The translations under genes and the position numbers were made by a program. Below, piece by piece: positions 13,463-42,059 of a stretch of DNA of 45,334 nt (positions are counted from its first letter, which is position 1; every line of letters begins with the position of its first letter). The notes beneath the pieces are model-generated. The model made no database searches. It saw only the letters and a list, made by a program, of their open reading frames with translations, and had not been told where the DNA came from. The DNA is taken from assembly GCA_947474995.1 (NCBI GenBank), contig CANJNJ010000025.1, positions 1 to 45,334 on the forward strand. Reading direction: 5' to 3'. The DNA is from Opitutaceae bacterium (GTDB taxonomy: Bacteria > Verrucomicrobiota > Verrucomicrobiia > Opitutales > Opitutaceae).

Positions 13463-13536
13463 GTTGTTGGTAGTACCGCCTTCAGGCGGCGCTTGGTCCA
13501 CTTTCGTTCCGCCTAAAGGCGGGACGACGAACAAGA
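13463..13536. repeat. REP pair of the TTCCGCC family, copy 1
   Basis: Two palindromes in inverted orientation: GTTGGTAGTACCGCC-TTCA-GGCGG on the left and CCGCC-TAAA-GGCGG followed by GACGACGAAC on the right. The pair forms a BIME-like unit in the gap between two plus-strand genes. This left copy is slightly diverged (TACC for TTCC). Confidence 0.85.
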
Positions 13537-14550: not shown

Positions 14551-14618
14551 GTTGGTAGTTCCGCCTTTAGGCGGAATCCGCCTACCACAAACATCCGCCT
14601 GAAGGCGGAACTACCAAC
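14551..14618. repeat. REP pair of the TTCCGCC family, copy 2
   Basis: GTTGGTAGTTCCGCC-TTTA-GGCGG and CCGCC-TGAA-GGCGG followed by AACTACCAAC, facing each other. It lies between the two carbon-nitrogen hydrolase genes. Confidence 0.9.
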
Positions 14619-18918: not shown

Positions 18919-19143
18919 TTTGGCCACAAATTACGCAGGGGCGCATCTCACTTTCTTGCAGGCCGCGGTTGTTGGTAATTCCGCCTTCAGGCGGCTGGCT
19001 GGAGGGTTGCGATTCCGGCTGAAGCCGGGACTACGAACAAAGCTCCCGGCGGGAGAGGCAAGTAAGTGAGCTGCGCCCATTGCCCAGATGGGCACAAATA
19101 GACGCGGCCTTTATTCGTGCCCATTGGTGTAATTTGTGGCCAA
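18919..19143. repeat. Nested imperfect inverted repeats enclosing a REP pair
   Basis: Outer arms: TTTGGCCACAAATTAC (18919-18934) against GTAATTTGTGGCCAA (19129-19143). Inner arms: 18939-18959 (GGGCGCATCTCACTTTCTTG) against 19058-19078, matching at about 19 of 21 positions. The right half is longer, with an extra block containing GTGCCCATTGGTGTAATTTG. The unit fills the gap between lacI and the sulfatase gene. The CACAAATTAC motif resembles a dispersed repeat often seen between genes in Verrucomicrobia, as I recall. Confidence 0.7.
18968..19040. repeat. REP pair of the TTCCGCC family, copy 3 (diverged)
   Basis: GTTGGTAATTCCGCC-TTCA-GGCGG on the left; on the right TTCCGGC-TGAA-GCCGGGA with ACTACGAAC. 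The right palindrome has changed both stem sides (GCC to GGC with matching GCC), so pairing is kept. It lies inside the larger inverted repeat. Confidence 0.85.
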
Positions 19144-20559: not shown

Positions 20560-20628
20560 GTTGGTAGTCCCGCCTTTAGGCGGAATCCGAACGGCCCAAA
20601 CCTTCCGCCTAAAGGCGGAACTACGAAC
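20560..20628. repeat. REP pair of the TTCCGCC family, copy 4
   Basis: GTTGGTAGTCCCGCC-TTTA-GGCGG and TTCCGCC-TAAA-GGCGGAA followed by CTACGAAC. It lies in the leader of the FGE/propeller gene, 45 bp before the chosen start codon. Its frame is open, so a longest-frame start would wrongly translate it. Confidence 0.9.
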
Positions 20629-26829: not shown

Positions 26830-27771
26830 TCACCCCTCACGCGCGCACCGGAAACCGAGATTGCTCGTCGAGCTGCCAGGCGTGTTGCTCGAGCGGGCGT
26901 CGGTCCGGTACCGGTTGCAGTAGCTCGCATGGCACAGGTACGAACCGCCGCGCATGACCCGCCGGTCGCCGGTGGCCGGGCCGGTGGGATCTTTCTTCGG
27001 GCTGTGGCGATAAGTGGCGGCGTCGAACCAGTCCCAGCACCATTCCCACACGTTGCCCGTCATCTGATAGAGGCCGTAGCCGTTCGCCCGGAAATTTTTC
27101 GCTGGGGCGGTTCCAAAGTAACCATCGGCGCACGAATTGTGGTCCGGAAACTGGCCCTGCCAGACATTCATGGCGTGGCGGCCGCCAGGCTCGAGCTCGT
27201 CGCCCCAGGGAAATTTTTCCTGCACCCGTCCGCCGCGGGCGGCGCATTCCCACTCCGCTTCCGTCGGCAGCCGCTTGCCCGCCCACGTCGCGTAGGCCAT
27301 GGCGTCGAACCAGGAAACCTGCACCACCGGATGCGACCAAATTTTTTTGATGTTGGAGGCCGGTCCTTCCGGATGCCGCCAGGTCGCGCCGTCGACGCGG
27401 CACCACCATTCGCTGCCGAGCACGCGCAAGCGGACGGCGGTCGCCTGCTGGGCCGCGGTCAGGTGGCCGAAAAACACGAAACTCCAGCCGAAGCGCTCCG
27501 CCTCGGTCTTGTAACCGGTGGCGTTGACGAACGCATTGAACTGCTCGTTGGTCACGCAGGTCGCATCCAGATAGAAGGGCGTGAGTTCGACCGCGTGCGC
27601 CGGGCCCTCCCCATCGGCGGCGAAGCCATAGGTGCCGTCGGTGCCCATCAGGAATTCCCCGCCGGGAATAAGCTGCATCCCCTCGACCGATCCGGCCCGC
27701 GCCCGCTGAAACCCACCGGTGGCCGGCGGAGTTTCCGCCGCGGGGTGGCCGGGAGCACAACAGGCTTTCAT
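26830..27771 (-). CDS. Formylglycine-generating enzyme (sulfatase maturase)
   Basis: A 313-residue oxygen- and copper-dependent formylglycine-generating enzyme, which converts the cysteine of the Cys-x-Pro-x-Arg motif in sulfatases into formylglycine. Landmarks: MQLIPGGEFLMGTDG (32-46), TNEQFNAFVNATGYKTEAE (74-92), WSHPVVQVSWFDAMAYATWA (145-164), KRLPTEAEWECAARGG (166-181), GNVWEWCWDWF (239-249) and the active-site pair C280 and C285 in GGSYLCHASYCNRYR, ending in the standard NLGFRCAREG. There is no export signal, so it acts in the cytoplasm on nascent sulfatases. Both sulfatases in this window have a cysteine-type site and are likely clients. The upstream flank carries a fragment of a second FGE gene. 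This is the only FGE here with an intact active site. Confidence 0.95.
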   Translation of the reverse strand: MKACCAPGHPAAETPPATGGFQRARAGSVEGMQLIPGGEFLMGTDGTYGFAADGEGPAHAVELTPFYLDATCVTNEQFNAFVNATGYKTEAERFGWSFVFFGHLTAAQQATAVRLRVLGSEWWCRVDGATWRHPEGPASNIKKIWSHPVVQVSWFDAMAYATWAGKRLPTEAEWECAARGGRVQEKFPWGDELEPGGRHAMNVWQGQFPDHNSCADGYFGTAPAKNFRANGYGLYQMTGNVWEWCWDWFDAATYRHSPKKDPTGPATGDRRVMRGGSYLCHASYCNRYRTDARSSNTPGSSTSNLGFRCAREG

Positions 27772-27777
27772 CCGCCG

Positions 27778-27915
27778 TCAGGCTTCACGGGCCGAACCAA
27801 ACCGCAAATCGGAAACACCCGGTTGGGCTGCGGCGAGGTGACCGAAAAACACGCAGCTCCAGCTGCCGCGCTCCGCCCATGAAGCTCCCGTCGAAGAATG
27901 TTTTGGTGACGCCGC
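27778..27915 (-). pseudogene. Fragment of a second FGE-type gene
   Basis: On the minus strand, a frame ending at a TGA at 27778-27780 reads TGASWAERGSWSCVFFGHLA then AAQPGVSDLRF. It aligns with TGYKTEAERFGWSFVFFGHL and TAAQQATAV of the intact FGE next door (residues 85-113). Just upstream, in a neighbouring frame, VTKTFFDGSF matches VTNEQFNAFV. The rest of the domain, including the cysteines, is missing. It is a frameshifted relic, probably of a tandem duplicate, lying between the FGE and kdgT genes. Confidence 0.6.
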
Positions 27916-32367: not shown

Positions 32368-32501
32368 GTTGGTAGTTCCGCCTTCAGGCGGAAGGTTGGA
32401 GGCATTTACTTCCTTTCGGTGCCCGGGACGGAAGGTTTGGTTGCCACCCCAATATTGGGGTCAAACCGGCCTTCATTCCGCCTGAAGGCGGAACTACGAA
32501 C
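32368..32501. repeat. REP pair of the TTCCGCC family, copy 5 (left flank of the RAYT gene)
   Basis: GTTGGTAG-TTCCGCCTTCAGGCGGAA at the left and TTCCGCCTGAAGGCGGAA-CTACGAAC at the right, facing inward, about 90 bp apart. The right palindrome ends 8 bp before the transposase start codon. Confidence 0.93.
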
Positions 32502-32508
32502 TCGGGCC

Positions 32509-33117
32509 ATGTATCAATGGCGCAGTCTAACCGACTTTGAGCGGAGAGAAATTCTGGACGCTCGCAAACGATCCAGCCGTCCATGGCACAGCCCCCCGCA
32601 TGGGAGATACGACGGCCCTGCTTGGTTTCATTTAACCGCGGCGTGCTTTGATCACTCTCCCGTCATAGGCCACTCCGCCGCCCGCATGAATTTGTTCGCC
32701 GGCGAATTGCTCGCTGTTCTTGACGTCACATCGACCCAAGTTGCTGCCTGGTGCCTGCTCCCCAATCACTATCATCTTTTAGCCGAGACGGTGGATCTGA
32801 AAGCGGTCACGCGCGCTTTGGGTCAACTGCATGGCCGTTCGTCCCGTATCTGGAATATTGAAGACCAGAAGCCTGGCCGGAAAATCTTCCATCGTTCAGC
32901 GGATCGTCGCCTCCGCTCCGAAGCCCACATCTGGGCGACCCTGAACTATATTCATCACAATCCGGTTCGACACGGCTACGTGCCACGCTGGACCGATTGG
33001 CCCTGGAGCAGCGCGCACGACTACCTGCATTCAATCGGCGCCACGGAAGCGGCTCGAATGTGGCACGCCTATCCTGTCCTCGATTACGGCGAAGGCTGGG
33101 ACGACCCCAATGTTTGA
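32509..33117 (+). CDS. REP-associated tyrosine transposase (RAYT)
   Basis: A 202-residue Y1 single-strand transposase of the TnpA-REP (RAYT) type, related to IS200/IS605 transposases and thought to process and spread REP palindromes. The metal-binding His-x-His is H87-Y88-H89 in WCLLPNHYHLLAE; the helix with the probable catalytic tyrosine is LNYIHHNPVRHGYV (Y147), followed by WPWSSAHDYL, a family hallmark. An N-terminal strand carries WFHLTAACFDHS. The gene is bracketed by two copies of one REP family, 8 bp upstream and 8 bp downstream, and the other seven copies in the window are of the same type, so this protein is the obvious partner of that repeat. Length is normal and the frame is intact. 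Confidence 0.9.
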   Translation: MYQWRSLTDFERREILDARKRSSRPWHSPPHGRYDGPAWFHLTAACFDHSPVIGHSAARMNLFAGELLAVLDVTSTQVAAWCLLPNHYHLLAETVDLKAVTRALGQLHGRSSRIWNIEDQKPGRKIFHRSADRRLRSEAHIWATLNYIHHNPVRHGYVPRWTDWPWSSAHDYLHSIGATEAARMWHAYPVLDYGEGWDDPNV

Positions 33118-33124
33118 TGGCCTT

Positions 33125-33263
33125 GGTTCGTAGTTCCGCCTTCAGGCGGAATGAAGGGGGAGGAAAACAAGTTCGGAGCCGAATCCAATCCTTCCGCCTG
33201 AAGGCGGAACTACGAACCAGGACCCGCCAATCTTCCTTCCGCGTGAAGGCGGAACTACCAACC
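33125..33263. repeat. REP cluster of the TTCCGCC family, copy 6 (right flank of the RAYT gene; three palindromes)
   Basis: Three palindromes: TTCCGCCTTCAGGCGGAA near 33134, TTCCGCCTGAAGGCGGAA near 33192 and a variant TTCCGCGTGAAGGCGGAA near 33237. Heads are GGTTCGTAG, CTACGAACC and CTACCAACC. The last two are in the same orientation, unlike the simple facing pairs elsewhere, so one unit has been added. Confidence 0.93.
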
Positions 33264-36213: not shown

Positions 36214-36309
36214 GGGTTCGTCGTTCCGCCTTCAGGCGGAAGGCTCGGGCCGGGTCTGAAATGAAAATCAAACAAGTCATCATTCCGCCTGAAGGCGGGA
36301 CTACCAACC
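36214..36309. repeat. REP pair of the TTCCGCC family, copy 7
   Basis: GGTTCGTCG-TTCCGCCTTCAGGCGGAA and TTCCGCCTGAAGGCGGGA-CTACCAACC, facing inward. It lies between the divergent M16 peptidase and transporter genes, so it is upstream of both. Confidence 0.92.
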
Positions 36310-37542: not shown

Positions 37543-37622
37543 GTTGGTAGTTCCGCCTTCAGGCGGAAGGATTGGCCGGCTTGGCGATTTGGCCGATTCC
37601 GCCTAAAGGCGGAACTACAAAC
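37543..37622. repeat. REP pair of the TTCCGCC family, copy 8, inside the transporter operon
   Basis: GTTGGTAG-TTCCGCCTTCAGGCGGAA and TTCCGCCTAAAGGCGGAA-CTACAAAC, facing inward. It begins 16 bp after the first permease and ends 12 bp before the second, a typical BIME position where it could tune mRNA decay. Confidence 0.93.
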
Positions 37623-40723: not shown

Positions 40724-40767
40724 GGACAGTCATGACCTTTGCCATCTCGTTGCCGAGTCGACCGAAC

Positions 40768-40794
40768 GTAGCCTGCTGCGAGAGCAGCGGGACA
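40768..40794 (+). repeat. REP-like hairpin with CGAGAG loop, copy 3
   Basis: GTAGCCTGCTG, loop CGAGAG, CAGCGGGACA. The stem differs from copies 1 and 2 (CCTGCTG/CAGCGGG with one G-T pair), but the loop and the GT-GCC...GGGA frame are the same. With copy 4 it forms an inverted pair; AAGTCG after this copy faces CGACTT after the other. Confidence 0.75.
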
Positions 40795-40815
40795 AGTCGG
40801 ATCGACCGAACCCTC

Positions 40816-40842
40816 GGTCCCTGCCCTCTCGGGCAGGGCGAC
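40816..40842 (-). repeat. REP-like hairpin with CGAGAG loop, copy 4
   Basis: On the minus strand: GTCGCCCTGCC, loop CGAGAG, GGCAGGGACC. The stem is CCCTGCC/GGCAGGG, again different and again fully paired. The remainder of the gap (40724-40900) has no gene. Confidence 0.75.
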
Positions 40843-40900
40843 GACTTGGAAAGCAAAATTTGAAGACCCACGCTCGTTCTCGCCGGCGCCCGCCCCAGCT

Positions 40901-41990: not shown

Positions 41991-42059
41991 GTTTGTAGTT
42001 CCGCCTTTAGGCGGAAGGATTGGACCGCCCGGATTCCGCCTAAAGGCGGGACTACAAAC
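41991..42059. repeat. REP pair of the TTCCGCC family, copy 9, between the two ATPase genes
   Basis: GTTTGTAG-TTCCGCCTTTAGGCGGAA and TTCCGCCTAAAGGCGGGA-CTACAAAC, facing inward. The surrounding gap (41897-42124) has no gene. Confidence 0.92.

Follow-up and report, generated by a model that had tools for sequence, protein, structure and literature searches.

Published descriptions define REPs by a GT[AG]G head (PMC3733652, PMC3686654, PMC6006769), and the available portions of these papers note degenerate second and third head positions within some families. The assays described in PMC8266576 were run on RAYTs from E. coli, S. maltophilia and Marinomonas, each of which naturally has GTAG repeats. 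In the REPtron Mb of Marinomonas sp. MWYL1, assigned to RAYT group 3 and TnpAREP subclass 2.5, repeats cluster near the gene, and REP-Mb consists of GTAG, a 2-nt spacer and a 10-nt perfect palindrome with a TTTA loop having three crucial positions (same sections of PMC8266576); the locus described here is alike in arrangement and design. It differs in its motifs, which are NHYH, FH and YIHHNP as against DH[LF]H, WQ and YI[VI]ANP tabulated for subclass 2.5 (PMC6006769, Table 1), and the heads of its clade, unlike those of subclass 2.5 as far as these sources describe them, are not confined to GT[AG]G. By published description the clade (NHYH, WH, YIHHNP, ~200 aa) is close to TnpAREP subclass 2.8, which comprises eight cyanobacterial proteins with NHYH, W[YH], YIHYNP and a length of 199 aa (PMC6006769, Table 1), but subclass 2.8 is described in the available text as having long REPs with GT[AG]G heads and as confined to Cyanobacteria, whereas the protein here has FH and YIHHNP and a short REP. 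Judged by published motif descriptions, the lineage matches no subclass exactly. The E. coli REPtron (group 2; TnpAREP structure 4ER8) shares the HUH-Y fold, and its GTAG contact residues align to residues 128, 132 and 136 of the present protein; it differs in its EHMH motif, its long bulged stem, its use of Glu100 with GTAG, and contacts made by a C-terminal tail. GTAG repeats have also been reported in a verrucomicrobium, Opitutus terrae, whose high-number families (17, 19 and 20 are named) resemble those of the present host in head and number and show head degeneracy at positions 2 and 3 (GYAG, GYRG, GTRG, GTMG, GTGG); a fixed non-GT[AG]G head tied to its own RAYT, as seen in the present clade, is not described for O. 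terrae in the available text of that paper (PMC3733652). A search of PMC papers for a RAYT with a GGAG head gave only unrelated papers among the 20 of 64 matches listed.

The DNA analysed here (the window) is a 45,334-nt stretch from an Opitutaceae bacterium, forming the whole of one contig (C25) of a 5.24-Mb genome assembled into 261 contigs. Positions 32509–33117 of the forward strand encode a 202-aa RAYT (ATG at 32509, TGA at 33115–33117), a TnpAREP-like HUH/Y1 transposase as assigned by motifs, profile searches and fold. The open reading frame list places its start at a TTG (32359), within the upstream REP pair; Met-Tyr stands at the position of the 32509 ATG in 26 of 29 clade rows as printed, alternative start codons being printed as M in these rows. 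The HUH motif, N86-H87-Y88-H89, is intact, the catalytic Y147 sits in Y147-IHH-NP152, and the protein also has FH; N86, H87, H89 and Y147 are invariant in all 29 rows of the clade alignment. The NCBIfam model REP_Tyr_transpos (NF047646) gave 73.3 bits, below its curated cut-off of 80, which by this model makes the protein a divergent member, and the match to Pfam Y1_Tnp was weak (17.7 bits, cut-off 23). The nearest solved structure, by sequence and by fold, is 4ER8: a profile of 29 clade members matched it at E 5.8e-11 (hmmsearch), and the predicted structure (pLDDT 86) had it as best Foldseek match (E 3.6e-8, TM 0.53 by query and 0.63 by target). The host genome contains a single copy of this RAYT together with four distant RAYT-like proteins (28–33% identical), unlike an IS200/IS605 element, which would be expected as several near-identical copies moving as a unit.

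The RAYT gene is bracketed by REP elements, as the earlier note had described. The upstream pair (32368–32501) is an HH pair, with GTAG outside and a hairpin-to-hairpin linker of 86 nt; it ends 7 bp before the ATG, so that the pair stands and the distance of 8 bp given for it does not. Downstream, a second HH pair (33126–33217) begins 8 bp after the stop codon and is followed by a third, single palindrome on the reverse strand (33239–33262; one stem mismatch, CGCGG), which bears out the three-palindrome cluster of the note. All seven further pairs that it listed were found as REPINs, lying between a laminin-G-like gene and a carbon-nitrogen hydrolase gene (13466–13532; partner head GTCG), between two carbon-nitrogen hydrolase genes (14551–14618), between a sulfatase gene and a LacI-type regulator gene (18971–19038; degenerate, with a GTAA head and a partner stem CCGGC), at the 5' end of an FGE-sulfatase/BNR gene (20560–20628), between an M16 peptidase gene and a transporter permease gene (36216–36308; one head GTCG), between two transporter permease genes (37543–37622) and between two oligopeptide-transporter ATPase genes (41991–42059). 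A GTAG head shared by all of them was claimed as well, but in the pairs at 13466, 18971 and 36216 a half has GTCG or GTAA. Since the longest reading of the FGE-sulfatase/BNR frame (from 20518) crosses the REPIN at 20560–20628, the true start of that gene may lie downstream. The adjoining genes are ordinary (carbon-nitrogen hydrolases, sulfatases, the FGE-sulfatase/BNR protein, the LacI regulator and the M16 peptidase), and a transporter cluster of two permeases, a solute-binding protein and two ATPases has REPINs between its genes. With up to two mismatches allowed, GTAGNNCCGCCNNNNGGCGG matched the window 21 times (one palindrome being matched on both strands at 13470/13476 and at 13503/13509) against 1.65 expected, a count reached in 0 of 100 shuffles. 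Taken as single-stranded DNA, five stretches (the two RAYT flanks and three of the other REPINs) folded much more strongly than their shuffled versions (z −5.0 to −8.8).

The REPIN at 37543–37622 is absent from the permease junction in all 12 same-genus loci examined, and is therefore lineage-specific at that junction. An exact empty site was sought in the same 12 loci, but their flanks give no base-level alignment, and the insertion ends of this REPIN could not be fixed from them. Two of the 12, L286 (genome G589) and L296 (G139), carry different inserts of roughly at least 100 nt at the same junction.

Across the host genome, 218 exact half-units (GTAGTNCCGCCTNNAGGCGG) were counted, and the reversed control gave 0. 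The window contig (45 kb) holds 14 of them where the rest of the genome predicts 1.8, in agreement with the high density claimed earlier; without the four flanking the RAYT, 10 remain, and since halves come in pairs, a Poisson P for this density overstates its significance. Among the matches listed (100 of 218), this contig has the most of 30 contigs. The unit was analysed in 44 distinct halves, taken from the window and from 30 loci of the same genome, and reads N-GTAG-TN-CCGCC-TTYA-GGCGG after its 5' end, usually followed by AA. The 5' end is GTT in 39, GCT in 4 and GGT in 1 of the 44, and upstream of it no base is shared by more than 55% of the halves; the G-TT-x-GTAG arrangement of the earlier note constitutes the end of the repeat. 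An inverted (HH) partner lies within ~100 nt of 43 of the 44 halves (partner search allowing up to 4 of 17 mismatches), with a modal hairpin-to-hairpin linker of 21 nt. With a 5' GT[AG]G head and palindrome, high copy number and mostly inverted pairs, the host repeats are REPINs (HH dimers); a search of Rfam gave no match at gathering threshold. The earlier note regarded the GTAG/CTAC head as distinct, a view at odds with the canonical status of GTAG, published for O. terrae among others (PMC3733652, PMC3686654, PMC6006769, available portions).

Whether repeats follow the RAYT was assessed on three scales. At 82 loci with a clade RAYT, TTYA hairpins occur at 5.99 per kb within 350 bp of the gene and at 0.33 per kb at 650–1500 bp, and 6 of the 82 have no such hairpin nearby; in 61 other RAYT-like loci, taken whole, the density is 0.02 per kb (4 matches in 188 kb), and three of these four matches lie at L108, a decayed clade gene. 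A non-clade RAYT-like gene has a Pseudomonas-style REP pair (GTAGGAGCCTG...) ~1.4 kb away (L056, positions 58 and 115). Taken with the NCBIfam score and the proximity to 4ER8, the hairpin densities uphold the earlier assignment of a RAYT with cognate REPs. In a family sample of 150 genomes, the host has 221 half-units and each of the 149 others 0–8, and a close RAYT was found in two of the 149 (G105, 51% identity, E 3e-67; G057, 48%, E 5e-50; next match 2e-21). Since L200, on the same contig as the RAYT of G105, and L037 carry GGAG repeats, the low GTAG counts of G105 and G057 fit. In a phylum sample of 387 genomes, 35 including the host carry a clade RAYT, at E below 1e-38 and close to full length in all but G388 (next genome 1e-23), and 20 of these 35 are REP-rich as against 19 of the 352 without one, leaving 15 clade-RAYT genomes that are not, where REP-rich means at least 10 GTAG-type or at least 15 NGAG-type matches, thresholds picked after the counts were seen. 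On the contrast in REP numbers that the earlier note expected between relatives with and without the RAYT, the outcome is mixed. The low counts of the family sample do not extend to a same-genus genome outside it (G599), which also carries the REPINs, and three genomes of family f38 (G322, G409 and G476; loci such as L135, L140 and L134), in which a RAYT search at E 0.001 found no match, have 188, 238 and 67 GTAG-TN-stem-TTYA matches. For these three, both loss from the assembly at repeat-broken contig ends and true loss of the gene are possible. Many of the listed repeats of G322 stand in direct tandem, at 26- or 47-bp steps, and not in inverted pairs. At L329 (G404:C143:8800-10000), a broken clade RAYT lies beside two GGAG hairpins, and by its sequence the locus looks like a decaying REPtron; G404 has 40 NGAG and 43 GTAG matches. 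Like the anatomy and the copy number, the coupling of repeat type to RAYT clade is an observation. In sum, the earlier observation is confirmed and its interpretation partly supported.

Close relatives of the window RAYT come from MAG records whose titles name Acidobacteria, KSB1, Planctomycetaceae, Calditrichaeota and Hydrogenedentota; by sequence the clade spans several phyla, for which the earlier description of the set as verrucomicrobial-type is too narrow. From at least 489 candidate clade RAYTs, 80 named loci were kept, to which further loci from family and phylum searches were added, and removal of two identical and three near-duplicate loci reduced the tree set from 126 to 121 proteins. 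Loci were scanned for any four bases followed by two further bases and a 5-bp perfect stem around a TTYA loop, and a head was taken as confident with at least two hairpins and 60% agreement; 36 of the 121 rows had none and were dropped before residue tables were made. The 85 assigned rows have GGAG (32), GTAG (30), AGAG (10), GGTG (6), TGAG (4) and GTTG (3) heads, so that GT[AG]G is not clade-wide, and a search keyed to it overlooks the repeats in 55 of the 85, the majority of the members to which a head could be assigned. The proposal that clade RAYTs lacking GTAG hairpins have no REPs was rejected when shared flank sequences revealed the same hairpins with other heads. When the stem was left unconstrained, 148 of 184 distinct sites with head and TTYA were perfect stems and 175 were within one mismatch, in 30 stem sequences; when the loop was left free, TTTA (189) and TTCA (171) accounted for most of 377 sites, and the spacer began with T in 374. 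Pairing, loop and geometry are therefore kept, the stem letters are free, and the guide (the 5' head) varies. Three clade RAYTs with Asp132 (L100, L231, L234) are flanked by GTAG repeats with another loop (TGTT, or TT with a one-base spacer), so the TTYA rule is not universal. Mapped on the tree, in which 48 of 118 inner branches have support below 80, guide classes change 17 times against a shuffled mean of 43, and 0 of 200 shuffles were as low. Each guide class was searched for a CT or CA cleavage dinucleotide conserved at one position, and none was seen; within each class, mainly GTT directly 5' of the head is conserved, shifted by one in the TGAG class (4 loci). What looks new here, from sequence comparison, is that relatives of the window RAYT switch guide with hairpin geometry kept.

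In most genomes tested, the genome-wide repeat population carries the head of the resident RAYT. GTAG-type and NGAG-type matches number 235 and 4 in the host (G000), 105 and 3 in G240, 170 and 11 in G417 and 45 and 0 in G325, all with GTAG RAYTs, and 0 and 269 in G263 and 0 and 176 in G358, both with GGAG RAYTs, while G442, which has GTAG, TGAG and GGAG RAYTs, has 313 and 89. The ratio of the two types differs between 15 genomes with GTAG RAYTs and 7 with NGAG RAYTs (P=0.0004), a test that includes G433 and G310, whose head calls are weak, and omits G442 for its mixed heads, clade genomes without an assigned head and GGTG/GTTG genomes. A GKTG pattern had 7–111 matches in nine GGTG/GTTG genomes and 0–6 in 12 others (reversed controls 0–5). 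Exceptions are G416, which has a GTAG RAYT yet 91 NGAG and 76 GTAG matches, G347, which has two GGAG RAYTs and 36 GTAG matches, no RAYT found in either accounting for the NGAG or the GTAG repeats, respectively, and G253, which has a GTAG RAYT with 3 GTAG and 10 NGAG matches (wrong direction, low counts). Four genomes (G433, G233, G345, G170) have the RAYT and few repeats of these patterns.

Alignment columns of the 85 rows were screened for association with each guide base. Base 2 showed its strongest association with residue 132: where base 2 is T, Asp132 occurs in 32 of 33 rows, with Asn in the other and Glu never, and where it is G, Glu132 occurs in 40 of 52 rows, Asp in 8 and another residue in 4, from which it follows that Asp does not force T. 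For base 3 the strongest column is residue 128, which is Cys in 8 and Ser in one of the 9 rows with T3, and Cys in 5 of the 76 with A3; for base 1 it is residue 101, with Arg in 9 of 10 A1 rows. Profile alignment sets residues 128, 132 and 136 (H128, D132 and R136 in the window RAYT, its equivalents of the guide contacts) on Q95, E100 and R104 of 4ER8, positions named in the available sections of PMC8266576 among the GTAG contacts that group 3 retains; the same sections place GTAG contacts in regions including those surrounding beta4, and the predicted RAYT structure has a strand at 131–134. Since E. coli TnpAREP has Glu100 yet uses GTAG, any code would be clade-specific. Among further loci, some of them near kin of rows already counted, Asp or Glu at 132 fits base 2 in 4 of 4 (L266, L273 and L279, Asp with GTAG; L269, Glu with GGAG, a head resting on one GGAG hairpin plus one GGAA), L270 has Pro132 with TGAG (one hairpin) L274 has Phe132 with GGAG (two hairpins), and L275 showed no hairpin; of two weak-head rows with Asp, L198 (one GGAG hairpin) misfits and L188 is mixed. 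Along the tree, guide base 2 changed ~5 times and Asp132 ~9 times. Tree-aware simulation at matched rates reached the association of residue 132 with base 2 in ~0.07% of runs (0–0.2% across rates, the upper value at slower ones) and that of residue 128 with base 3 in 0 of 3000 runs (0–0.07% across rates), figures that carry no correction for the number of columns screened. Starred independent pairs number one for base 2, on well-supported branches, three for base 3 and two for base 1, on average with none against the rule, in a test that is underpowered, as none of the three could reach significance with so few pairs. As a sequence correlation across few independent switches, residue 132 thus tends to vary with base 2 of the guide, and residue 128 with base 3.

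We consider it likely that the window contains a REPtron, in which the RAYT acts in trans on REPINs, within a clade whose guide switches and in which residues 132 and 128 go with bases 2 and 3. By analogy with known systems, the window RAYT probably copies the hairpin repeats around the genome. A chromosomal HUH-Y1 RAYT would act in trans on ~70-nt REPINs of the form 5'-GTTN-GTAG-TN-stem-TTYA-stem-linker-inverted copy-3', which would fold when single-stranded; the RAYT would bind the hairpin through its shape and T..A loop, residues around strand beta-4 would read the 5' guide tetranucleotide (GTAG here), and Y147 would nick, the unit being moved or copied into new locations, mainly between genes. 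Within the clade as a whole, the stem would drift while pairing, loop and geometry stay, and the guide would switch among GTAG, GGAG, AGAG, TGAG, GGTG and GTTG. What is observed here is that, in most of the genomes tested, the guide at the RAYT locus agrees with that of the genome-wide repeats, and that residue and guide correlate; binding, nicking, single-strand mobility and base reading by the correlated residues we infer from TnpAREP work. That the guide was re-programmed several times in the clade, with residue 132 setting base 2, residue 128 base 3 and possibly residue 101 base 1, and the hairpin recognised by shape and TTYA loop, is a reading that we favour by a small measure. If true, it would amount to a code for a single-strand DNA guide that can be read and put to the test, and the cleavage dinucleotide of GGTG/GTTG enzymes would shift from CT to CA. 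The clade offers a natural test set for guide reading, in that the guide changes, hairpin geometry is kept and candidate specificity residues lie at reported contacts, which could be tested by residue and base swaps.

Shared ancestry alone might account for the residue–guide correlation, with the coupling of RAYT and repeat real and sub-lineages carrying both residue and guide by chance. The few independent switches (one, three and two starred pairs for bases 2, 3 and 1) and the 48 of 118 poorly supported inner branches leave room for this, but at matched rates the simulation gives P ~0.0007 for base 2 and 0 of 3000 for base 3, and the top columns by excess information among those screened, 132 for base 2 and 128 for base 3, both fall on positions reported as guide contacts in the E. 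coli enzyme, something that common descent by itself does not predict; we regard it as possible, though doubtful. A departure of another kind would make the repeats domesticated host elements, terminators or mRNA stabilisers, with the RAYT incidental or serving the host and not mobilising them. Such a role would suit their intergenic positions (two inside the transporter gene cluster), the strong folding of the stretches tested and the three genomes with 67–238 repeats and no RAYT match; it sits poorly with the 0–8 half-units in 149 of 149 other family-sample genomes, with a repeat head that changes along with the RAYT, and with the missing REPIN at the same permease junction in 12 of 12 same-genus loci, and is in our judgement unlikely. 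Movement of the repeats by another enzyme that happens to leave them clustered near the window RAYT, for instance one of the four other RAYT-like matches in the genome, is very improbable, as the loci of those four (L032–L035) are without a TTYA hairpin and the 61 RAYT-like loci outside the intact clade hold 4 matches in 188 kb, 3 of them at the decayed clade gene L108.

Alongside the REPtron reading, three other features of the window were recorded. A second dispersed repeat of ~117 bp lies between transporter genes at 40729–40846; by sequence it is no REP, and among the matches listed it has at least nine further copies (83–90%) in the same genome. Near the contig end, positions 484–2340 hold genes that encode an NYN domain and the C-terminus of an EcoEI R-subunit; these may belong to a type I restriction locus. 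Finally, a 54-bp direct repeat (27449–27502 and 27824–27877, 83% alike) is present inside one open reading frame without a Pfam match.
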